Shown in pieces: positions 2,040 to 64,000 of a stretch of 64,000 bases of DNA; positions within the stretch are counted from its first letter, which is position 1; every line of letters starts with the position of its first letter. Under the pieces are notes generated by a model, which had not been told where the DNA came from, did not search any database, and saw only the letters and a list, made by a program, of their open reading frames with translations. The DNA comes from Polytrichum commune (Eukaryota > Streptophyta > Polytrichopsida > Polytrichales > Polytrichaceae). The DNA is taken from positions 9,176,001 through 9,240,000 of the forward strand of contig OX485804.1 in assembly GCA_950295325.1 (NCBI GenBank). The letters run 5' to 3'. A program made the translations under genes and the position numbers.

Positions 2040-2910
2040 ATAATAATGTCACTTACCCTATTGTGAGGTGTATGCTAGGTTACATTGATGATTGACAACT
2101 TCATCATAAGTGTCACCTCATGACACTTGGCCTTCAATTGTGCTCATTAATATCTTGGGCGTGAGCATGTTCAATAGTGCTACGAGGTGTATGTCTATGT
2201 TACGCAATCATGGTCTACAAGTTGATTAAAGTGTACACAAATGACACTTCACATTATTATGCTTAAAAATATCTTCCTCTTACATACTAAAATGTAAGGT
2301 ATGTGAGTGTTATTTGTGTAGTATTGTGCCCTCATGTATCATTTTAAACCTAAGTCGGTTTGTTTTTTTGCGTTCTCCAACTTCTACCACTTATATTTAC
2401 ACTACAAAACTCGTGTTGCATTAGCAAATCTACAATGAGACATTTGTGAAAACCAAATTGAAAATTGGACCTCCCTTTATTTAGTTATGGTATTTGAAGT
2501 CCATTGGAAGTGCATGTTTGTTGACTCCTTAATTGGATACATAGGTCCTCCCAATTGTGTTCATTACTGAGTTTAGAGGGAGTGCAAAGTAGTTAACAAT
2601 ATTCAAAGACATGGTTCAATCTCTTTTAAACACGTGTTTTTATGATGTTTGCTCTTTGATCCTCAACAAACCTCATACCAATCAAATCTAGGGTCTAATT
2701 AAGAAAACGAGCCAGTTAAGACCCATCTACCTTAAACATGTGACACTTGCCTTGGATACTAAAACGCAAAACTATCATCTCAAGTATCCCAATTTACTAC
2801 ACTAAATATCATAATGTAAATAACTCATCACTTAATATTTTTTTACTTATGGTGATGAATAGTATATTGTTGACAATTAGCGGACGTGACATTTTGAAAC
2901 CTCTATGCAT
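2040..2910. other. Intergenic DNA with one copy of a dispersed repeat
   Basis: No gene is seen. Bases 2590-2690 contain GTAGTTAACA and CAATCTCTTTTAAACACGTG. This relates to the repeat at 17330-17450 and to the 3' part of intron 1 of the KH gene at 6180-6300. Confidence 0.5.
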
Positions 2911-4450: not shown

Positions 4451-4544
4451 TTTCTGGGGAATTGGATTGGCTTCTTTTGTAGGAGGCATCTGATGGCATT
4501 CGTCCTTCGTTGCACATTTTTGTTGCAATTTGTTTCTCTTTACT

Positions 4545-5195
4545 TACCTGTGGGTTTGAAGCAAATTGGGGTGTTGTGGGTTGCAATTTTTGTTGTAATT
4601 TGTTTCTCGTTCCTTACCCTTGTAGGCTTGAACCAATTGGGGTGTTGTGATTGCAACTTTTGTTGCAATATGTTTCTCCTTGCTTGCCTGGTGGGCTTGC
4701 ACCAAAAGGGTGTTGTGGGTTGCAAATATTTGTTGCAATTTGTTACTCCTTGCTTACCTTGTGGGCTAGCACCAATTGGGGTGTTGCGGGTTGCAATTTT
4801 TGGCTGCAATATGTTTCTCCTTGCTTACCTTGAACCAATTGAGGTGTTTTAGGTTGCAAGGTTTTGCCGCAATTTCTCCTTGCTTATCTTATGGGCTTGA
4901 TCCAATTCGGGTGTTGTGGGTTGCAATTTTTGGCTGCAATATGTTTCTCCTTGCTTACCTTGAACCAATTGAGATGTTGTAGGTTGCAAAGTTTTGTCGC
5001 AATTTCTCCTTGCTTACCTTACGGGCTTGATCCAATTCGGGTGTTGTGGGTTTCAAATCTGTTCGCAATTTGTGTCTCCACGCTTAACATGTGGGCTTGA
5101 ACCAATTGGGCCATTGTAAGTTGCAAATTTGTGTTGCAGTTTGCATCTCCTTGGTTACCTGGTGGGCCAGCACCAACTGAGGAATGGGGTGTTTT
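4545..5195 (+). repeat. ~68-bp tandem repeat array in the leader intron, about 10 units
   Basis: Each unit carries GGCTTGAACCAATTGGGGTG, GGTTGCAATTTTTG and TTTCTCCTTGCTTACC. Units start near 4550, 4626, 4693, 4763, 4831, 4894, 4962, 5025, 5095 and 5165. The pair 4763-4893 is repeated almost exactly at 4894-5024, so a two-unit (~131-bp) block was duplicated recently. The last unit runs into the likely acceptor GGGTACAG just before the coding exon. The paralog at 24 kb has no such array. Confidence 0.85.
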
Positions 5196-5278: not shown

Positions 5279-8200
5279 ATGGACGGAGGGCATAAACGGC
5301 CGCACGCGCCGGACTTTGCCGAGCGGAACGGAAGGCAGAAGCGCCGCAACCAAGGAGGAGGGTACAATGGTATCCGCGACCTCCCAATGGCTGCGGGTGG
5401 CGGCGGCGGCGTGCCCATTCCCGAGGACGCCGTGTACCGCATCCTGTGCCCCGCGCAGAAGATAGGCAGCGTCATTGGCAAGGGTGGCAGCATCATCAAG
5501 ACGCTGCGGCAGGATTCGGGCGCCAAAATCAAGATCGCGGATGCCATCCCCGGAGTGGAGGAGCGAGTGATCATCATTTCGGGGCCCGAGCGAGCGGGCG
5601 GGGAGAAAGGAAACCGTGGTGGAGGAGGGAAAGCTGGCCGAGATGGACATAGAGGTCGCGAAGGTCGAGACCGAGAAAGAGATAAGGAAGGAAAGGAAGA
5701 GACGGAGAACAACAACAACAAGGTAAGTGGACCTTAAACGGACACTTTTATCTCTGCACCCACTTCTTGTAAGATATGAAACACATCGCAATTAGGGAGT
5801 GTTGATTAAGGTAGACAGGCCTTATTTGGTGACTTTTTGTTGTTTGCTACCTCATACCACTTGGATTCGAGAGGGTGAAATTTCTGTGCGTACGCAAGTG
5901 TATCATCCTATAAATATTTGGAGCTAATCTCGAATTGTTGTGAATTATCGAAGTCCATAAGAACGAGCAGATAGGTACCAATTTATGAGCAGTGAGCCAT
6001 AAGAATGCCAGATAGGTACCCCGATTATGTTGTTAGCAAATCCAAATCATGCCCGTAGCCATTTTCTTATAAGTATCTTATTCATTATCAAAGTGAAGTC
6101 TCATTCTCATTCTTATGAAATGGTCATATAGGTAACCCAAGAATGTTGATGTTGAGTATTGAGCATTCTAGAATGGTGAACAAATCCTGAGCACGTAGTT
6201 CAATCTCTTCAAAACACATGATATCTGTCTTTCGATGTCTGTATTTTTTGTGTCCTTACTTAGATCCACACCCAACCACACACCACTCAAATGTAAGCTA
6301 GGTGTCCAGATTGTTGCTTTGTTACATTGGATTAACGCGGGTGTACGTTAATAAGGAGAGAGAGGGTGCTGCTGCGGAGAGAGAAGGTGGCGGGGAGAAG
6401 AAGTTGTCCCCGGCGCAAGAAGCATTGTTTAAGGTGCACGCGCGCATCATTGCGGATGTGGAAACATCACGGGCGGCGGGGGGAGAGGGCGGGTCGGATC
6501 AGGAGGAAGAGACTGCCCAGCAGCAGCAGCAGCAAGTTATCACTCGACTCCTTGTGCCCAACAACCAAATTGGCTGTCTTCTGGGTAAAGGAGGCAAGAT
6601 CATCGAGCAAATGCGGCAGTCATCGGGAGCGCAGATCCGCGTGCTTCCGAAGGAACAGCTCCCGGGCTGTGCGCTGCCGACAGACGAAATTGTTCAGGTA
6701 CATTTCATTCCCATCATCGTTGTTTCACAATGTGCAATAAAAAACAATTAGAGGAAGAAGGTGTGTGGGCCCTCTTATGTGGTCACTCTTATTAATCGGA
6801 CACCTACATTTAAGTGTCTATATGTGAAGAATGGGCACCAAAAAGGATCACGTGGTATGGTGAGGTTGGACTGTTAAACGTATTAGCTCATTCTAGGTTC
6901 ATTTAGGTTGGAGAGATCTATGTGAGAGAATATCTTCACTGTGGACTTTCAATAAATTTTGCATCCTTACTCTCATTTTAGAAACGTCGTAACTCACAGT
7001 ATGCAACAAAAATAAGAGGAAGGTGTGGTCTTTCTTCATAGTTGGACACCTACATTTGAGTAGTATATGGCAAGGCCTGTAGCTCAGAATGAATACTGAG
7101 ATGACACGTGGCATGATGAGATTGGATTATGTGCGCAAAATGTAATAACCATTATAGGTTCAATAGGGGAACGCAATTGGGAGGGTGTATGTGAACGGTT
7201 ATAGAGAGCGGGAATCTTCACATTCGGACTTTTGTAACTTTTGCATCCTTACTCCAATTCTGAAACGTCAAATGACAACTTTCGTGATTCACGATTCCTA
7301 ACCAGATGAGTCAATTCCCAGCCAATTCAACAGCCAGAAATATGTGGTATTGGAAGTGCTCACAGTAGGGCCACAGACCTTAATGCAGAGCAAATTATTA
7401 TTTTTCTGTAAACTATGTGAATACCAATCTTTCGCACCGCAAGTCTAAGAACGTGGTAATTTGAAATCAAGTAATGAAAGCGCGTGGATGGTACAACAGA
7501 TATCTGGAGATGGTTCGCTGTTGAAGAAAGCGCTGCTTGCCATCTCATCCCGGCTGCAAGAAAACCCTCCAAGAGATCGACCACAAGCTTTTGCTCCTCC
7601 TGGGCCAGCTTTTGTGCCTGTGGGAGATTACCTTCCGAAAGACGCCTTCCACAATGGCGGTGGTGGCCCCTTGTTTGGATTGGGACCAGGAGGGCCTCTG
7701 GATGGGGGTGGTGGATGGCCTTTCGACGGCCGAAATCTACCCCTAGATCGCCCAGACAACAACAATAACAACAATAGAAGACGGAATAATAATAAGGATG
7801 GACGTGATGCCGCGGAGAATGAGCTCGTCTTTCGACTCCTGTGTCCCACTGACAAGATTGGGAGTGTCATTGGGAAAGGTGGAAGCATCATCCACAACCT
7901 GCGGAAAGAAACAGGAGCTCGCATCAAAATTGCGGACGCCGTCCCTGGTTCGGATGAACGTGTCATCATCGTGTCCGCTGTGGAGGTGCGTGCATGCAAA
8001 AATTATCACATTTGCAACAAGTTGAAATTTCTGGTGGTGTTGACTTTTGGATGGCCGTCAGTCCAAGAAAATCCCATATCTATGAGTTAACAGTTAATAT
8101 ACCATTTATTAGACAGTCGCCATTGTAATGTATGGGTAAGGCAGTTGGGGGCAAGATCAGTCTTGCAATGGAATAAGGTTTGTGGATGTTGTGCTTTAAG

Positions 8201-10503
8201 TGAGTAGTGTTATGTGTTGTAGCTGCCTGGCGACACTTTCTCGCCTGCACTGGAGGCAATGATCCAGGTTCAAGGGAGGACTACCACGGAGATGGGCGGT
8301 GACAAGGATGGAATTGTCACAACAAGACTACTGGTACCCACCAATCAGATTGGGTGTTTGCTAGGAAAGGGAGGGAGCATCATTGCAGATATGCGGAAAG
8401 CCTCTCGTGCCAACATTCGCATTCTTCCCAAGGACACCTTGCCTCGCTGTGCTCTTGAATCAGATGAGCTTGTGCAGGTATTGCATGGTCCGTTTTCACC
8501 TTCAAGAAACATGAGATAATTTATGCCAAAATGATCAAATGTGGCCAGCATTATCAATACTAATTTGCACTTGATTCTATCTTGTTACTGTAGGTCAGAC
8601 AAGCGCTAAAATCAAAGATGGTTCTGTGGCCCGGCTTCTGTAACCACAGCTGTTGTTGTTTGTTTGCTATGACATGGGATTAAATTCCTTTGGTTCATCC
8701 TTGATTGTCACTGTCATAGCTGAGGCATCAACAAATAAACAAACAAAAGTTGTATTGATGTCTAGGAGATGCAGATTGTGGGTGACGCAAATGTCGCTCG
8801 GGAGGCCCTTTTCCAAGTCATAAGCAGGTTGCGCAACAATGCCTTTCGCGAAGGTGGGAGTGACATGGGCCGAGTTGGTGGTGGCATTCGTGATTTTGCA
8901 TCCTCATTGCCACCTATTACCTTGCCAGGCAATGACTATAGCAACTCTTATGACTACAGCACAAGGATGGAGCCTGGCTCGCCTGGGGGTGGGATGTTTA
9001 CATTACCTGGTATGAGCATGCCAGGCGCAATACATTCATCGTCTGGATTTGGAAGTCTCGCTTCTACTCCTGAAACATGGAGCATAACGGTATGTAAGAA
9101 TCTTCTTGCTATGTGTATCTGAACTTAATTTGCATCTAATCCTGAGCCATGGTATGCAATGGTAAGTACTATCTGTATTTGCACTGATTGTATGTTGGGA
9201 ACTGAAGAAGAAAAAGCTAAGTAATCACCTCTGGCTTGGTTTTAGTTGAATTAAGATGGTTGGAGCTACAATCTTTCTGCTTGGCCTGGAGCAGTTAGCA
9301 TAGTGGCATTTATTACACTGTATGTTCTGCAAACAGTAGAGCATCATGCTTGAAGTTTCATTTTTTAGTCACTACTTAGTGACAAAGTTGCGAGAGCAAC
9401 AATCGTATGCTTTCTGCAGTTTCCTCAGGTCATCTTTGACTGCTGTAATTAGGCCATTATTGCCGACAACCACAGAAGAGTACTTTATATCTGACCCCTG
9501 AAGCATTCCAGGGTGGTGGTGGATTGGGTAGCCTCTCTGGCTTTGGTGGTGGCTCTTCACACTTGATCCAACCACTTGCAGGAGGTTTTGGCGGGTAGGT
9601 ATGCTTGAGTAATAACCCAAGTTCAATATATCTTTATTCCCTTGACTTCCGGCAGATGTAAGGTCCCCCAAGTGTTGTGCAGGTATTGTCTTTCTCATCT
9701 ACCAGTGGGATAAGGATATTGAAAATAACCTTAAAAATCAATACCGAGCAGGTCATGGTGTTAAGATTATCCCTAAATTGTTCAAGGGTATATAGGTGAT
9801 ACCATGGAATTTTGCAATGTTATATGTACATATATCAAGTGGATATCAACACTGGTAGTAAAAGATATGATACCATCTGGGTCTTATTGATCCCTGTGTT
9901 GAACCTAGGTACCCGCACGACATTGGTTCCCTTCCCACCAGTTTCCATTTTACCCCTTGCAGATGAGGGATCATATTCTGAAATACATGCATGTAGGGTA
10001 CTCAGCTGATGATGCTTGAATGAATTCCTTAACTTGCCTCACAGAAAACATGTACTCTATGATGCGCAGAGGGAGCAGGCCCACAGGCAGCATAGGTGCA
10101 ACATCAACCGTGGAAGTTCACATTCCTAACACCTCTGTTGGTTCAGTCATTGGCAAGGGAGGCAGCAACATTGCACATATCCGACAGGTCTGCACTTTTC
10201 ACTTCTTGAGGGATAAATGAGGGTAACTTGTCTACCAAATGTAATAGAAGGGGTCCTCAGCTTTAATGCTGTTGTTGACTCAAATTGAGCTAAATTGTTC
10301 ACCTGAAGGCCTTGGTGCATATGTGATGTATGTCTCAGATATCAGGGGCAAAGGTGAAACTGCATAACAGTGAACAAGGCACAACAGAGCGAGTGTTGGA
10401 ACTGTCTGGAACAGTAGAACAAACTCATGCCGCCAAGAGTTTGGTACATTCTTACATGCAGAGTGGTGGTGGACTGCTACGCCCTTCTGCATTTGCAGTC
10501 TGA
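5279..10503 (+). CDS. Five-KH-domain RNA-binding protein (RCF3/HEN4/At4g18375-like)
   Basis: Exons: 5279-5722, 6356-6697, 7500-7985, 8223-8477, 8766-9089, 9512-9594, 10070-10187, 10339-10503; about 738 residues. All splice phases close. The start gives MDGGHKRPHAP, matching the paralog. KH domains lie at about 52-105, 209-285, 371-422, 456-540 and 656-725; the GxxG loop reads IGKGG or LGKGG in all five. An Arg/Glu-rich linker with Gln and Asn runs separates KH1 and KH2, and Gly/Pro linkers follow. Proteins of this family bind RNA in the nucleus and influence pre-mRNA processing and stress or floral gene expression; that role is inferred by family. The exon 6/7 junction is uncertain: an alternative pair, 9584 to 10045, also keeps frame. 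Introns 1 and 2 carry repeat insertions absent from the paralog. Confidence 0.9.
5723..6355 (+). other. Copy-specific intron 1, made largely of a dispersed repeat
   Basis: A phase-0 intron with donor GTAAGT and acceptor TTAATAAG. It interrupts the coding sequence between KH1 and KH2, where the paralog is continuous (around 23740 on the minus strand). Its 5' end (GGACCTTAAACGGACAC, then CACCCACTTCTTGTAAGATAT) matches 17092-17190, and its 3' end (GTAGTTCAATCTCTTCAAAA, then GATCCACACCCAACCACAC) matches 17366-17435. So the intron corresponds to a copy of that repeat. Confidence 0.8.
6735..7275 (+). repeat. Two diverged tandem repeat copies inside intron 2 of the KH gene
   Basis: Bases about 6735-7000 and 7005-7275 share GGACACCTACATTT, an ACGTGGYATGRTGAGRTTGGA block, a TAGGTTCAATAG-like block and TTTTGCATCCTTACTC in the same order. 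Part of it (GATGAGATTGGATT...ATAGGTTCAATA) matches 31150-31215, linking it to the repeat family that forms intron 1. Intron 2 is 802 bp against 200 bp in the paralog. Confidence 0.7.
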
Positions 10504-17089: not shown

Positions 17090-17450
17090 AAAACGAACAC
17101 AATTTAGAAGCACATACAAGAAAGTGGGTCTAAAACAAAGACGTTTAGCTCTTAACCCACTTCTCCTAGGATATTAAACATGCCATTAGCATGAGATTAG
17201 CATACCCAACTTGAAGGCATAACCATCCTTTTGATATTTTCTAAAGCTCATATGAATATCCTCTTCTGTATCAAATTGAAGATACATTTTCTTCTCAAAT
17301 ACTCATGTAAGTCCCCATATTAACGCTAAGATTTGGACTTTTGAGTAGTTAACAAAGTTTGAGCATGTAGTCCAGTCTCTTTTAAAAACGTGTTCTTTTG
17401 TGTCCATTATTGGATCCACACCTAGCCATACAACAACACTCATGCTCCCC
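17090..17450. repeat. Dispersed repeat homologous to KH-gene intron 1
   Basis: It starts GGACCTAAAACGAACAC and ends GGATCCACACCTAGCCATAC. In between are CCCACTTCTCCTAGGATATT and GTAGTCCAGTCTCTTTTAAA. The same order is found in intron 1 at 5723-6300. Partial copies are at about 2590-2690 and, inverted, at 31110-31215. No open frame of note. Element class unknown. Confidence 0.7.
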
Positions 17451-20559: not shown

Positions 20560-21065
20560 GCGGCAAATCCCGAAACCTGCAGTAATTCCTCCACCACCAA
20601 TCCATGACTGCATGTTGACCTGTACCTTACTCTGGACTACACAACTGTCCGGGGAGATTCGATACCTGCCCTCTTGTGATTTGTTCACTAATGTGTGGAT
20701 TCACTGTTGCTCTGAAATCTGAGGACCATCCACTGAAAGACGTAAGGCAGTTTAACCAGCCCAATGGCGCCAGTGGAAGACACCAAATTATTACATATGT
20801 AGGAACGAGCTCCATCACAAAAATCACAATTCCGATGCATTTTGCAGACCCCCACCCCCAAACATATTGGCAGGCTTCTGCTAATAAAACACCATATATT
20901 GACTAAGAGGAAATGGAGAATGCAAACCTCTTTAAGATGAACGATGTTGCTGCAGCTCTCCCCAACAATTGGCAAGAGTCAATTGCTAGGAATATGAACT
21001 TCCACGGTGGACATCATATCGAGGCTTTTCCCGATGCTGCCTGTAGCCCTGCTCCCTCCTCTGGA
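20560..21065 (-). pseudogene. Decayed KH5 exons of the minus-strand KH gene
   Basis: On the minus strand, 21065-20930 aligns with exon 7 of the plus gene. It keeps GAAGTTCATATTCCTA but then meets a stop (CCT AGC AAT TGA), and the VIGKGGSN loop has become IVGESCSN. Next, about 20720-20585 aligns with exon 8 (ISGAKVKLHNSEQG...): it keeps AGTGAACAA, ATGCAG and GGTGGTGGA but shows frameshifts and a stop. The fifth KH domain is therefore lost from this copy. Confidence 0.75.
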
Positions 21066-21521
21066 GTTCACAGATCCAAATCACTTACATTAGAATATCT
21101 GACTGATATTCAGTCACCACTTTGCCAAAGGAAGAGTTACCTCATACTATCACTGCATTCTTAAGGCTATCCTGACAAACTACCCTCACCAAGTTCAAAG
21201 AGCCACCACCACCGTCAGGAAGCTGACCAGCCCTTTTCTACCTGACTTAAGAGCAGATGAAAGTGAAGTGAAAGTGAAAACTGATTGCTAAGAACCTATT
21301 TAAGCCAGAGGATAACCGATAGAAACACCAAGATTGCTATGGAAACAAAAGATGATCATATAGAGCCAGATAAGCAAGTTAAATTACTAGTGCTTACAGA
21401 ATCTAGATGCCTTCAGGAACCCAGGACCTCACTGTTATGATCATTAGAGATTTGTATTATCTTCTTTCCACTCACTGCCAAACTGTTTGCAAAGGCAATT
21501 AAGAGTTTGAAGCTCAGATTC

Positions 21522-24244
21522 TTAGTGGTTGGTTGCATTCCAACTTACCGTCATGTTCCAGTCAGGAGGAGAACCAAGACTTCCAAAGCCAGAAGACGAA
21601 TGAATTGAACCACCCATGCTCATCCTAGGTAATGGAAAGATTCCACCCCCAGGTGAACCAGGGTCCATCCTTCCACCATACTCATACGAGCTGCTATAAT
21701 CATTGCTTGGCATGCTCAGGGGTGGCAATGAGGGTGCAAAATCTCGGCCACCACTACCACCTCTCCCTGTTTCGCTGCCACCTTCACGAAAAGCATTGTT
21801 GCGCAACCGGCTTATGACTTGAAACAGTGCCTCTCGAGCCACATTTGTGTCGCCCACAATCTGCATGTCCTAAGTATGAATTTCAAAGTTGATAGACCTC
21901 AATACAACCCAGATGACCCCTCCTAGTGCAACAAGAGGGTCATTAAACCTCCCCTAGTTAAGGCCTCACTATAACTTTCCAGCTATAAAAGGCATTGAAT
22001 ATATGAGCTGTGCAATTAAAAGGGTGTAAGAAGTCTGAGTTTGTCCAGTCTACAGCTTTTCACAAATTTGACCTTCAATTATGGTCCAAAATCACATATT
22101 TTGAATTGACCAATTTCTGAATTCTCAACTCATACAAACATAATACCTTTCTGCTGTCGTATATCTCCAAGCAACCACATAAAAATTGAAGTGATAAGCC
22201 ATGACATACCTGTACAAGTTCATCAGATTCAAGAGCACATCGAGGCAAGGTATCCTTGGGTAAAATACGAATGTTGGCACGTGTGGCTCTCCGCATATCC
22301 TCTATGATGCTGCCACCCTTGCCTAATAAACAGCCTATCTGATTGGTAGGAACCAGGAGCCTGGTTGTCACAATTCCATCCTTGTCTCCACCCATCTCTG
22401 CAGTGGTTCTTCCTTGGACTTGAATCATTGCCTCCAGTGAAGGTGAATACGAGTCACCTGGAAGCTGTACAGTGAAAAATATGAAAATTAGACGGAAAGA
22501 GGAACAAATGTTAAAAGTTGTGTGGTTTATGTTCTGGGCAGTTCATGCATTAATGAATCATACCCACCATATCTTGTGATCTGAGGAAATACATTTGCAC
22601 CCATCAATGTTGGTGATCATTTACATAGGTTACAGTGTATTTCTTCAAGTACTTGAGCACAATGAAGTTGCAACAATGTGCAGGAAACACTCAATACATA
22701 GATTTCTCAGTGAGGCTTGTTTATCCAGTTCTACATAGACCAAAATAAAACAAAACAAAAGGAATGCCAACACTTTAGAATGCGATGATTCACCTCCAGG
22801 GCTGACACAATGATGACACGTTCATCAGAACCAGGAACAGCATCAGCGATCTTTATTCGAGCCCCTGTTTCTTTGCGCAGGCTGTGGATGATGCTACCAC
22901 CCTTCCCAATGACACTCCCAATCTTATCACTCGGACAAAGCAAACGAAAGACAAGCTCATTCTCCACAGAATCCCGTGCATCCTTGCTGCGCCTGTTATC
23001 TGGGCGATCAACTGACAAGTTCCCACTGCCAAAGGGCCATCCACCTCCATCCAGATGACCAGGTCCCAAACCAAACAAAGATCCATTTCCCCCACTGTGA
23101 TAGCTTTCTTTGGGCATATAATCACCCACTGGCACATAAGCTGGCCCAGGAGGAGCAAAACTTTGAGGTCGATCTCTAGGTGGATTTTCTTGCAAGCGGG
23201 ACGAGATAGCAAGTAGTGCTTTCTTCAACACTGAAACCTCACCAGACACCTGCAACCAGATTAAATCCTTCTGCAATTTAGTCTAGTCCATCACATTCTG
23301 TACCTCTCAGTGGACAAATTGCATCCACTCAAATCATCTGGAACACATGAAGACTCACCACCAAGACATCAAACTCTCAACCACCTCAAACCATGAAATT
23401 CAGATTCATTACAAGTGAATGAATCGGATGGCATTTGAAGAGGCATAACCTGAACAAGTTCATCAGTAGGCAGAGCACAACCAGAAAGCTGTTCTTTGGG
23501 AAGAACCCGAATCTGGGCTCCAGTCGACTGTCGCATTTGCTCTATGATCTTGCCTCCTTTACCCAGAAGACATCCAATTTGATTATTTGGTACAAGGAGT
23601 CGAGTTACCACCTGCTGGCTAGGCTCTTCTTCGTGATCAGACCCATCCCCACCCCGTGTCTCCGCATCTGCAATGATGCGTGCATGCACCCTAAACAGGG
23701 CTTCCTGCGCCGGGGACAATTTCTCACCATCCCTATCAGAATCCTCCCTCTCTTTCCTAACATCCTCTTCCTTACCCCCATCTCTCTCTCTCTCTCGCCC
23801 CTCACGGCCTCTCTCACCAGAGCGCCCCTCCCGACTACTTCCATCTCTCCCTCCTCTCCCTCTGTCCACTCTTTCTGCAGAGGAGATGATGATCACTCTC
23901 TCATCCACTCCAGGGATGGCATCTGCTATCTTGATTTTCGCACCCGACTCCTGCCTCAACGTCTTTATGATGCTTCCACCTTTGCCTATCACACTTCCAA
24001 TCTTCGGCGCCGGACAAAGGATGCGGTACACCATGTCCTCAGGTAAAGGAGTGCTGACCAGGGGCAATGGCAGATCCCGAGGCGCAAACCCTCCTCCTCC
24101 ACCTCCTCCACCACCTCCTCCTCCTCCTATTTCTCGACTACTATAACCGCCTTGGTTTCGTCGCTTCTGCCTCCCATTTCTCTCTGAAAAGTCTCCATCG
24201 TATGGGGCGTGCGGCCGTTTCCCCCCATTATAACCCCCATCCAT
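21522..24244 (-). CDS. Four-KH-domain RNA-binding protein, paralog of the 5.3 kb gene
   Basis: Exons on the minus strand: 24244-23450, 23249-22794, 22464-22210 and 21869-21549. If intron 4 is retained, the frame continues nine residues past the exon end to a stop at 21522, giving about 617 residues. The start gives MDGGYNGGKRPHAP; a longer frame back to 24265 would need a non-ATG start. KH1 to KH4 are intact, each with a GKGG loop. A 13-residue Gly run precedes KH1 and an Arg/Glu/Asp-rich linker follows it. KH1 and KH2 share one exon, unlike the plus copy. Family role is RNA binding in mRNA processing (inferred). The KH5 exons are decayed, so the true 3' end is uncertain; a cDNA may show another terminal exon. 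Confidence 0.85.
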
Positions 24245-30299: not shown

Positions 30300-31860
30300 T
30301 CACATATAATGGAACCAAGGCTACACAATGCACAAGAAATCTCACAACGTTCTCAACTACACAATGCACATAGAGATGTTGATGTTGGAAGAGTGGCAGC
30401 AGACAACAACGAGTATTGTAACCCTAACCACTTCATCATTTCTTAATGTAGACACCCTAAACCCTTTTCACTTTTTGGTTTCACATTTATGCAATTGATT
30501 ACTTGGACTCTTGCTTTGATCACTTAATCATTTTGTTTATGATTTGAATTGGTTGACATTGGGAGCCGAAGTTGAGTTTGCATACAATGTACTCAAGTTC
30601 GTTTGTAATTGTACATTATCATAAACATAGGAATTGTCAACCCCAAATATGTGGAACTATAAGTGGGTCATTACATGGTTTTAAGCTCGTCATTGTTTCT
30701 ACCCCCTATGAGGCTCATATGCAAAGGGCTATAAGATGTTGTACAATATTGATGTTGACATGTAGGTGCAAATATTAGGGACATGAAACATGTATAAAAT
30801 TTATGCCCCAAGTGGCTAGGTTGCATATCACATGCTAGTGTGGGATGGGAACATCACCCAATCGCGAGGTGATTGGCTAGGGCAATGGATACAAATTCTC
30901 ATGTGCAAGAGACCACCTTCTGCCCATCATTTGTCTATGCACTACAAGAATACTTGAGTTGTATTATGGCCATCATATGTACAATTTCACTTTCTAGAAG
31001 GCCTCATGGTTTGTGAATAAAAAAATTATCTCATAAATAAAAATTGGGATGACAAGTGACACTTATGCCAACATTTTCCTAGAAATTCAAATATGGGTGT
31101 TCGATTAAGAATGATGGGTGGTTGGGTGTATATCTAAGATTGGATACCAAAAAATCATGTCTTAGAATGAGATTGGACTTCATTCTCAAAGTTTGTTAAC
31201 TACAATAGGCTCAATATTTGGCATAATTGGGGGGGGGGGGGTTATGACCTTCTTATGACTCATTGTCAATGAATTTGATAATTCATAGCAATTTAAAATC
31301 AAACTGTAGTTTTTTGGATTGACCCTAACTTTCTTCACATACTTTTGCAAACACCCTAAAAGTTTAACCTCGAATTCGAGTAATTGTGTAATCTAACAAA
31401 CAAGGAGAAAACAACAACAAAGCAACCAAATAAGGCTCATCTACCGCACAAGATTTGCTAATCGACCTGGTAATTTGTCTTGGATTATATTGCACATCAT
31501 AAGAGGTCAAACCTCTTGAAGTAACCATACCCGATGGCTCATCCAACAACGAAAGGGTTGGAAGAACTCACCACACATTTTCATCCATGAAGATGAAGTA
31601 TCATAACCATGAGTAGATCGGTTACAAACTAGATAAGTTAACCATCGAGAGGAGAGTGGATGACAAATTGGTTATCGAACACAACCGGCTAGTTCAAGAC
31701 AAAATAAAAATAAAAATGTGGATCGCATCACGCTTGCATAGATGAAACATCGAGACAAGTTCTCATAACCCTTATCCTCTTGGATGTGCAATCTGTTATG
31801 ACTCATAAACATCTCGTTCGAGTAGGTGGGCAAGAGCGGAAGCCCTAAGGGTTAGTTCCA
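30300..31860. other. Intergenic DNA with an inverted copy of the intron-1 repeat
   Basis: Bases 31110-31215, read on the minus strand, contain AGTTAACAAACTTTGAGAAT and ATACACCCAACCACCCA, matching the dispersed repeat at 17.1-17.45 kb. A G10 tract lies at 31231-31240. No gene is seen. Confidence 0.5.
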
Positions 31861-58385: not shown

Positions 58386-60705
58386 AATGGAGGTGATTAA
58401 AGTTGATCAACTGTTGTCACGTCCATCACCTAAGCCATTGGCCCACTGTGCATGGCTTGGGGGCAAGACTTACCTTGTTTGGATAGATGCCCGCATAACG
58501 ATCACCTCCATCATTTCGAGCTCAATAGAATATTCGTTGGGGATGGCCATTGTCATGGGTTCAATTTCCCCCATGGATAGTACATTGGAAAACATGCCCC
58601 CCCTCGGCCTTCAAGTCCACATTGGAGAGAATCGTACTATTTGACAATGAGGAACCCCCCCCCCCCCTTGGTGCACGGTGTTGGGCTAGTTGAAGGTGAT
58701 GAAGAGTGTGTAAAACGTCTTAGGTATTGGGGATTGACAATATGTACCACCTTGTGTCCCCAATTTTAGGGCATTGATTTGTGTAATTGTTTTTAAGATT
58801 TATTATCATTATTATCAGTAGTATTATTGTACGCCGTGTTGTTCCGAACATTGCTTGATGATGTTTTTTCTAAAAGTTTGGTTTTCTTAGAGCATGCTGG
58901 GTGATTTTTTTCATGGAAGATTGTTTCATATGCCATTTGGTTTCGTGTGATTTTGGTAATGGGCCCCAATGAGACGTGTGTTTAAAACATATTCGATCAT
59001 TTTTATTGATATTTCCAATGATCTCTATGATAGGAAACAAGGGTCTCCAATGGTTCCTTTTCCCAACTACCTCACTTCTCCAATGGCATCAAATGTTAGA
59101 TTTCTATAAATGGTCACAAGTCCACATTGATGCATTTGAGCCCTACATACCTCTTTTTTATTATCCAACATAACCACTACAATCAATAAATTTGACACCA
59201 GAAGTAGCTTTGAAGACCCCTAAGATTAGACCAAGCCAAGTCATCGGAGATGGAATGATCACAAAGTCACAAGATAACAGGGGTTCAAGATTCACGTTGA
59301 ATGGATGAAAGGTATGCTCATATGCAATAACTTTATCTCTGTTGTGGCATTTGCTCACAACCCAACATACCTTTCCCACACATCACACATCACAAAAGCA
59401 TTAACTTCCTCCAAGGCGTATAATGTTAGGCCACAACATACACCATTAGGCAACATGTCGGGGACTTGTTTTTACTAGAGACTCTTCATCCACGACAACG
59501 AATGAGTTCCCTGAGTCCTCGTACCATTACATTGTTTATAGCATTCAATGGCATTTACTATTTGGAATTATGCAATGCTATAGCTTTTTGCCAAGAATGT
59601 AACTTTTTACCAAATAAAATAATAGAAATCGTATATCGTATGTATAACCTTTTTAATCTTTGTTGGCAAGGAATGAAAACCTAAGGCGAGAAATTATAGC
59701 CTTGCGTCACTCCAAATACTGAGTGGCACTAAATACCATGCACGGGGGAGTGTGTACTTGGCATGACACGAGTGCGTACACTCAAGCATGATTTTGGACC
59801 GTTCATAAATGTGACAGAGTTCATCCATCCCCATCCCCATGTAATAATAATAAACTCAGCTCATCACCGACGCCGTCCGAGAAGCCAAGCTGTTCTCCGC
59901 ACTCGAGAAAAGGGAGAATCATCCATCCATCCCCTACGCACTGTCAGAGTGGACATGTCAGCTTTGGCCTACAAAGTGTCGCGACGTGATTAGTTGGGAC
60001 CTGTTAAAGATGACGTGGAACCAGAATTTAGGTGGAGATGTGCCCAATCATACCTGAAATGCAAGGCAGCAACCATGAGAATGGAAGTACATGCAGTCTG
60101 CCCTTGATAAATGTTACACTTATAAACGTTAACTCATTATATTTGTTAACAAAATCGTACTCCCCTCATATTGCTAACTAGAATGTTAACTATGTTAAAT
60201 GTTAACAATAATTTACTCCCCTCTTTGTTTATTTTGCCACTTATAAATGTTAACCTACGAAATACATCCAATATTGTGTGATGACATCCATTACATTGAC
60301 TCACAACCTTTCAAAGTGGCAAAAGCCACCAAATTTGACTTTTGTGATCAAATTATTCATCTGGACTATATTGATTCTTATTTTGTTTCATAAAAATAAA
60401 AGATTGATTTGATACACATATTTTATATATGATAATTTTGCAAAACTCTCCCTCCATAATTGTAATGAATTTATACTTGTTAAGCATTCAAAAAGCTCCC
60501 TTTATAACTGTTACAATGTTAACTCACTATAAATGTTAGGAAAATTTTACTTCAGAGCCTAACATTTATAGAGGGTGGATTGTATAAACAACGGGCTTCA
60601 TTGGGGTCTGTAGTGGTAGTGGTTCCCAATCGTCCACTAAGTTGATGGCCAAACCACACTATATTGTGCAACTACTTGGGACCATATTAACACCAAAGAC
60701 TCTGA
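58386..60705. other. Intergenic DNA with MITE relics
   Basis: A CACTA-like end relic (GTGGCACTAAATACCATGCA) is near 59720. A C12 tract lies at about 58656. The 85-residue frame at 58387-58644 has no domain. 60110-60560 repeats the motif AAATGTTAAC/GTTAACATTT several times. Confidence 0.4.
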
Positions 60706-63356: not shown

Positions 63357-63735
63357 CTACACTAAATATGATATTTAGTGTCACCAATTCTAATCGTCTT
63401 TCTCTATACTAATTGTAAACCGCGGTGTAGTGTCACCCACACTAAATATTAACCCAACATTATTTGTCACCCCTTGTAAATTTTGGGGGGAGATTATAGA
63501 TCTACAGTGTTGCAAATACTGTCACTTACCAAGTCATTTTTCATCCAAAATTTCAATCACCTATGAAAATATTTCATCACAAGTTGTTGACAAGAGAAGG
63601 TAAGGTTTTGGCTGATGGATGAACTCATCCATCGTCCAAGACAATATTTGTTCACTTATTCATAAGAAGTGTCATCCAAAAAATTACCATAGTGACATAA
63701 CATACCATATGACACTAAATTTCATATTTAGTGTA
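63357..63735. mobile_element. CACTA-like MITE with palindromic ends
   Basis: 379 bp. The left end is CTACACTAAATATGATATTT and the right end TTTCATATTTAGTGTA, each self-complementary. ACT occurs immediately outside both ACACTAAAT ends, a possible 3-bp duplication. It aligns with 2911-3309 (inverted) and 41623-41910. Confidence 0.75.
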
Positions 63736-64000
63736 CTTATCTTAAATGCACACCTATATTTGGACCTAACTTCTTCATCCATATTCTCGGGTCAACCGAA
63801 AGTTTAAGTCCACAAATTGGAGTTGTATTTCATAGCGAACATGGAAAAAATAATCATTTTATACCTATCTAACTTAGGTTTTGTTGGAAGATGTCAACAT
63901 GGACTCATGGCACAACCGTGACCTCTATATATGTTACTAAGGCTCGTTCAACGTGACATGAATTCAAACTAGTTCCATGTTATATCATAGTAGGTGGAGC

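Follow-up and report, generated by a model that had tools for sequence, protein, structure and literature searches.

Introduction

Among the closest described systems to the intron analysed here are the introners. A survey of 3,325 genomes reported 175 that contain introners, with land plants yielding none (Gozashti et al., 2022; PMC9860276). As described there, one class of introner carries its own donor and co-opts the acceptor from the insertion site, codons may be gained or lost, and some families end in terminal inverted repeats (TIR) with target-site duplications (TSD) of 3–9 bp. An introner family is recognised in the same source from at least four mutually matching introns in one genome. 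In addition to introners, introns derived from maize Ds elements are cited in PMC3260210 (Dennis et al., 1988; Giroux et al., 1994), and the cited titles point to one mutant allele (Adh1-Fm335) and one de novo Ds intron. Similarly, a table in PMC3443670 includes introns formed by transposon insertion in Oryza, Drosophila, Oikopleura and Zea.

New introns are seldom caught together with their source, and land plants are a group where transposon-made introns are scarce. Stowaway-type MITEs are short, present in high copy and inserted at TA targets, and carry the terminal repeat CTCCCTCC. Here we describe a moss gene in which intron 1 was, on the evidence of its sequence, very probably created by the insertion of a TA-duplicating MITE after the gene had been duplicated. 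No report of a MITE-made intron in a bryophyte was found in a search of literature titles and abstract openings, whose coverage was partial.

The KH gene pair

Two inverted copies of a KH-domain gene lie within the window (the whole stretch of 64,000 nucleotides that was analysed). Gene A starts at 5279 on the plus strand, gene B at 24244 on the minus strand. The protein of gene A matches Pfam KH_1 with an E-value of 1.9e-56 (Pfam search). The two genes, at 5279–10500 and 21000–24244, stand tail to tail in inverted orientation with about 10 kb between them. They are the sole close pair in a genome protein search (17 candidates, 9 matches), which also returned a distant KH homolog on contig C1, and a 117-nt piece of A exon 2 matched only A and B in a search of the genome.

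Intron 1 of gene A begins with GTAAGT, ends with AATAAG and sits between the codons AAG and GAG (Table 1). At this site A reads NNK|EREG, while B reads RKERED without a break, so that the paralog at 24 kb does lack the 633-bp intron, as the original prediction had claimed. Read through, intron 1 presents a stop codon four codons in; joined, exons 1–5 of A give 617 open codons. The 5' region of gene A (4490–5190) was seen by eye to hold degenerate tandem-like repeats (GTTGCAATTTGTTTCTCCTTGCTTACC and variants).

Table 1. Positions of the gene parts and transposon copies in the window
Feature	Position	Strand	Basis
Exon 1, gene A (opens with the start codon and includes KH1 and a charged/Asn linker)	5279..5722	+	Open frame, alignment with B
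5' target-site duplication copy, now CA	5719..5720	+	Consensus alignment starts at 5719
MITE body, 3'-end subtype b, nested copy included	5721..6348	+	Consensus alignment
Intron 1, gene A, 633 nt, phase 0	5723..6355	+	Frame, comparison with B
Nested related element, starts AGGTAGACAGGCC, apparently cut short on 3' side	5808..6033	+	Consensus alignment gap
ATTAAC, branch-point-like, about 20 nt from 3' AG	6331..6336	+	Sequence; also in subtype b consensus
3' target-site duplication copy, TA	6349..6350	+	Consensus alignment
Host bases ATAAG, supply 3' splice site	6351..6355	+	Outside element in alignment
Exon 2, gene A (linker and KH2)	6356..6697	+	Frame and alignment with B
Intron 2, gene A, 802 nt, older	6698..7499	+	Common to A and B
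Homologous exon of paralog B, uninterrupted	23450..24244	-	Alignment with A
Family copy near 17 kb	17122..17435	+	E 8.6e-58 against family consensus
Further family copy	2508–2734		Consensus match
Further family copy	31109–31287	-	Consensus match
Weak family matches	58935–58996; 63725–63762		Consensus match

The MITE family

Both ends of intron 1 had been matched by the original prediction to a dispersed repeat at 17090–17450. This match is significant: a direct comparison gives three collinear pieces, the best with an E-value of 1.8e-6 (2.6e-4 and 0.001 for the others), and the repeat is a real family copy, its extent now corrected to about 17122–17435. That the repeat is dispersed was confirmed by searching for further copies in the 407.8-Mb genome, which gave thousands of rough candidates: 2,899 first-look candidates with the intron as query, 1,093 with its 76-nt left end and 7,348 with a 172-nt consensus query covering the 5' half, all of them rough counts, with 40 scored in each. 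With an exon-flanked query, the match starts at query position 97–98, which is the splice site AAG|GTAAGT, in three of seven other loci (L002, L004 and L005), and the remaining four match further in only, without that end.

The ends of the family were described from 105 copies, complete at both ends and with 60 or more bases of flank, drawn from 155 locus/strand matches; the other 50 lack an end or flank and were left out of the two-ended counts. The dinucleotide on the 5' side is TA in 82 of these copies and CA in 8, that on the 3' side is TA in 89, and 55 copies continue with AGGTAA, figures which come from a sample biased toward consensus-like, best-preserved copies and do not amount to a census. 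Two loci with near-identical flanks (L044 and L062, a duplicated region) were counted separately. In a set of 114 two-ended copies out of 162 loci, 52 have the exact motif AGGTAAG at the 5' end, 31 have it on the reverse strand at the 3' end, and 65 have it at either end. Sixteen copies added later, in addition to L158, entered these end statistics only and stand outside the coding-flank tests given below. The TA at the ends and the terminal repeats (AGGTAAGYGGGCC) identify the family as a TA-duplicating MITE of about 380 bp. It is short and in high copy, with the absence of coding judged by length only. There are two 3'-end subtypes, a ending GGCCCGCTTACCTTA and b ending GGATTAACACAGGTCTACCTTA, and the KH intron belongs to subtype b.

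Positions 1–720 of the window hold a pogo/Tigger-type transposase relic, identified by the match of 64 residues to the Pfam family DDE_1 (PF03184, E 1.9e-8); the pogo/Tigger superfamily also uses TA targets. An apparent family copy was seen by eye within the distant KH gene, at about 600–960 of locus L036 (G000:C1:25.32 Mb). Furthermore, LEAFY-family matches occur at three places in the genome, one of which (L156, G000:C1:40571878) reads KMRHYVH against KMRDYVH, with H for D, in 4bhk, a moss LEAFY. The best score of a LEAFY homolog from this genome was obtained with 4bhk (277 bits), ahead of 2vy1, the Arabidopsis protein (244 bits).

Fit of the element to intron 1

Alignment to the consensus accounts for 626 of the 633 nt of intron 1 as an end-to-end MITE copy together with a nested related copy. 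Against the subtype b consensus, intron 1 is aligned from the first through the last base of the element, which leaves 0 nt unexplained on the 5' side and TA plus ATAAG on the 3' side. As the element fills the intron from end to end, there is no room for an older intron. The first eight bases of the MITE body, AGGTAAGT, form the 5' splice site, and the final two bases of exon 1, AG (5721–5722), derive from the transposon end. The view that the repeat supplied the splice sites therefore stands for the 5' site, which is the end of the element, and not for the 3' site, where the AG is host sequence. The host bases ATAAG would formerly have been coding, and the ATTAAC near the 3' end is probably a branch point supplied by the repeat. 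The target-site duplication is imperfect, with CA instead of TA on the 5' side, and a change of TA to CA at this position would be synonymous (AAT to AAC).

The nested element occupies a gap in the consensus alignment between GATGA and TTAGCAAATCC, and was inserted at TA (5806–5807 and 6034–6035). Sequence related to it is found at L007 and L009, and weakly at L071. The idea that this segment belongs to a longer variant of the family was rejected, as the alignment shows a nested insertion at TA. Before this insertion, intron 1 was about 405 nt in length.

From these features we propose that the MITE landed in the first coding exon of gene A, where an Asn-rich linker joins KH1 to KH2. Before the insertion, the site would have been GAG AAC AAC AAC AA[TA]AT AAG GAG, with the original dinucleotide inferred; reversing the insertion on paper gives this sequence continued by AGA, which stays open, shares the frame of exon 2 and is one codon (Asn) longer than the predicted spliced product. 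The left terminal repeat (AGGTAAGT...) would then provide a consensus donor, with cleavage following the AG of the repeat itself, the branch-like ATTAAC would come from the 3' end of the element, and the acceptor would be the AG of host ATAAG directly past the right TA. Splicing would take out the element, one TA and ATAAG and leave the two bases of the transposon AG in the mRNA, so that the protein would be shortened by one Asn with the frame kept. Later, a second related element would have inserted at a TA inside the first, by which the intron grew from about 405 nt to its present 633 nt.

Intron gain and its alternatives

The relative age of the element and of the gene duplication bears directly on the choice between gain and loss. 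Genes A and B differ by a dS of 0.86–1.09 (three methods, 587 codons) and by a K80 of 1.03 at fourfold sites (239 sites), and one 16-bp stretch alone aligns when the three introns that they share are compared. The element in the KH intron differs from the family consensus by a K80 of 0.144 substitutions per site (359 sites, nested part excluded), which makes it the 15th closest of 37. The comparison is thus one of 0.144 with about 0.5 per lineage (half of the fourfold value), made between intronic and fourfold sites whose rates may differ. By this clock the element, which has diverged less than A and B, arrived after the gene had been duplicated, and this order of events means intron gain and not loss. 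The distant KH homolog, in which the stretch after KH1 (VMVSAREDPEAAVSPAMEG) is uninterrupted and the intron precedes VMVSA, appears to agree with gain in a supportive role only, its linker being much shorter and the position only roughly comparable.

A contrasting history would be that an old intron already existed, that the repeat inserted into it and that B lost its intron. Family copies do lie within older introns: intron 2, which B also has, is 200 nt in B and four times longer in A, where degenerate reversed family copies are present at 6758–6901 and 7033–7224, away from the intron ends and filling much of the intron between them. Judged from its sequence, intron 2 is the contrast case to intron 1, an old intron with repeats inside, and in addition one sampled copy elsewhere (L117) lies close to a metalloprotease exon. 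Because repeats also occur in old introns, the argument of the original prediction that loss in the paralog would not explain the repeat homology is insufficient by itself, even though the gain for which it argued is supported by boundaries and age. In intron 1 there is no remnant of an older intron, since the element reaches from the donor to within 7 nt of the intron end; a pre-existing intron would require the exact loss of both flanks as well as loss in B, and A and B had already split when the element inserted. As such, an older intron is highly improbable, and in our reading of the sequences the boundary and age evidence decides for intron gain. What is expected of a gained intron is found here in its end-to-end coincidence with one element copy, the uninterrupted homolog in B and an origin later than the split from B. 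The insertion of a mobile repeat, as had been suggested, is likewise upheld by the end-to-end consensus match, the TA target, the inverted-repeat ends, the in-frame empty site and an age below that of the duplication.

Insertion could also have broken the gene and left A as a pseudogene or as the source of a truncated KH1 protein with no functional intron, a reading that draws on the stop met four codons into the read-through and on a gene model read from DNA alone. Against it stand the 617 open codons over exons 1–5, a donor and acceptor so placed that the frame survives, and the record of the exons downstream. For exons 2–5, total dN between A and B is 0.10 (445 codons), lower than the 0.144 expected if A had been unconstrained since the insertion. 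The 1,407 nt of A exons 2–5 contain no stops, compared with a mean of 4.8 in neutral simulation, where none were seen in 0.4% of 2,000 runs. Conservation is lower in exon 1, where dN is about 0.20 (142 codons), which is as expected of a low-complexity linker and would also be expected of weaker constraint. A broken gene is therefore a very remote prospect. As the exons behind intron 1 are open and constrained, its splicing is very likely, and the parts of the gene behind it would so have been translated since the insertion. A downstream start codon, from which the later exons could be translated and so stay under constraint even if intron 1 were not spliced, is a weak alternative. The preferred reading, in which the MITE inserted after the duplication and created the intron, is very probable.

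A possible introner family

A broader proposal, compatible with the creation of intron 1 by a MITE, is that the family is a true introner family from which many introns of this genome were made. The thousands of rough candidate copies and the presence of a donor in both orientations, with exact AGGTAAG at one or other end in the 65 of 114 copies given above, are favourable to it, as is a possible second case in a 5'UTR. The trait of TIR and TSD ends of a DNA transposon, as in some introner families, is also present.

Coding flanks were examined with a test that required the donor GT to be kept and the frames on both sides to be open after splicing, and in which A and B were the sole training set for the codon scores. 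None of the 105 sampled two-ended copies had coding flanks on both sides by this imperfect test; the best scored 0.44 on its weaker side against 37.6 for the KH intron, whose flanks (39.9 and 37.6) are in the training set, with exon 1 at 28.9 when homologs were left out. When 126 5' ends and 130 3' ends were scanned singly, two reached the cut-off of 5, L066 (7.7) and L013 (7.5), a number that chance could give, as 800 random noncoding values reached up to 8.5, with their 95th percentile at 1.9. The cut-off was passed by six of nine real exon ends, so that one true case in three might escape the scan. L066, which has an open left flank of 74 codons, was rejected as a second case after its 3-kb surroundings, which resemble an upstream region, gave no consistent right-hand coding frame. 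Open frames across the joined flanks numbered 38, in 35 of the 105 copies, and eight of them (from eight copies) were compared with Pfam. One match was above the curated cut-off, the metalloprotease exon beside L117, which stops short of crossing the junction, and three were below it (two at L131 and one at L103).

L013, which stood out by its other flank and is the same place as L158 (G000:C4:10098050-10098750), is a reverse-orientation copy immediately upstream of what appears to be the first coding exon of another gene. In gene orientation it lies between CAG|GTATGC and CTTAAG|AGAAGAGG, with a good upstream donor and TTAAG downstream, and 16 bases separate it from an ATG that opens a plausible exon (MVARDGGSTMMKWTATQHLDLQPVRSGAPAVQPHCAAFHH...), presumably that of a WD40 protein. 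It is without one clean end and so falls outside the 105 two-ended copies. From its position, L013 may be a 5'UTR intron or may simply lie within a promoter.

The tally of one case and one 5'UTR candidate, which is sample-based and depends on an imperfect coding test, compares with the threshold of at least four matching introns, and a true introner family is unlikely. It seems equally unlikely that a MITE family of bryophyte genomes, with ready-made 5' splice sites in both orientations, has repeatedly turned exon insertions into introns. If true, land plants would have their first introner system, whose first members would be the KH intron and perhaps L013.

Comparison with known systems

The family to which the KH intron belongs resembles the Stowaway elements (Tc1/mariner MITEs) in being short, high-copy and flanked by a TA duplication, and differs from them in its terminal repeat, which is AGGTAAGYGGGCC with a consensus end of AGGTAA where Stowaway has CTCCCTCC. 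A single land plant genome here shows the element together with its target duplication, the inferred empty site, the reading frame and the order in which the events took place. This points to a concrete route by which an insertion into an exon could be survived, namely when the inverted repeat at the end of the element is by chance also a consensus donor.

Like the introners described in PMC9860276, the KH intron is a non-autonomous TIR element with its own 5' splice site and a 3' splice site from the host. Unlike those introners, as far as that report describes them, it is one clear intron, has a 2-bp TA duplication in place of 3–9 bp and is found in a land plant. Similarly, it shares with the Ds introns of maize cited in PMC3260210 the presence of a plant DNA transposon in a gene and its removal as an intron, here predicted, and differs from them, going by their titles, in that the insertion is old, the gene is still constrained and the element is a TA-duplicating MITE. 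Intron 1 of the KH gene is as such a well-resolved single case of a known kind, and an unusually clear one for a land plant.
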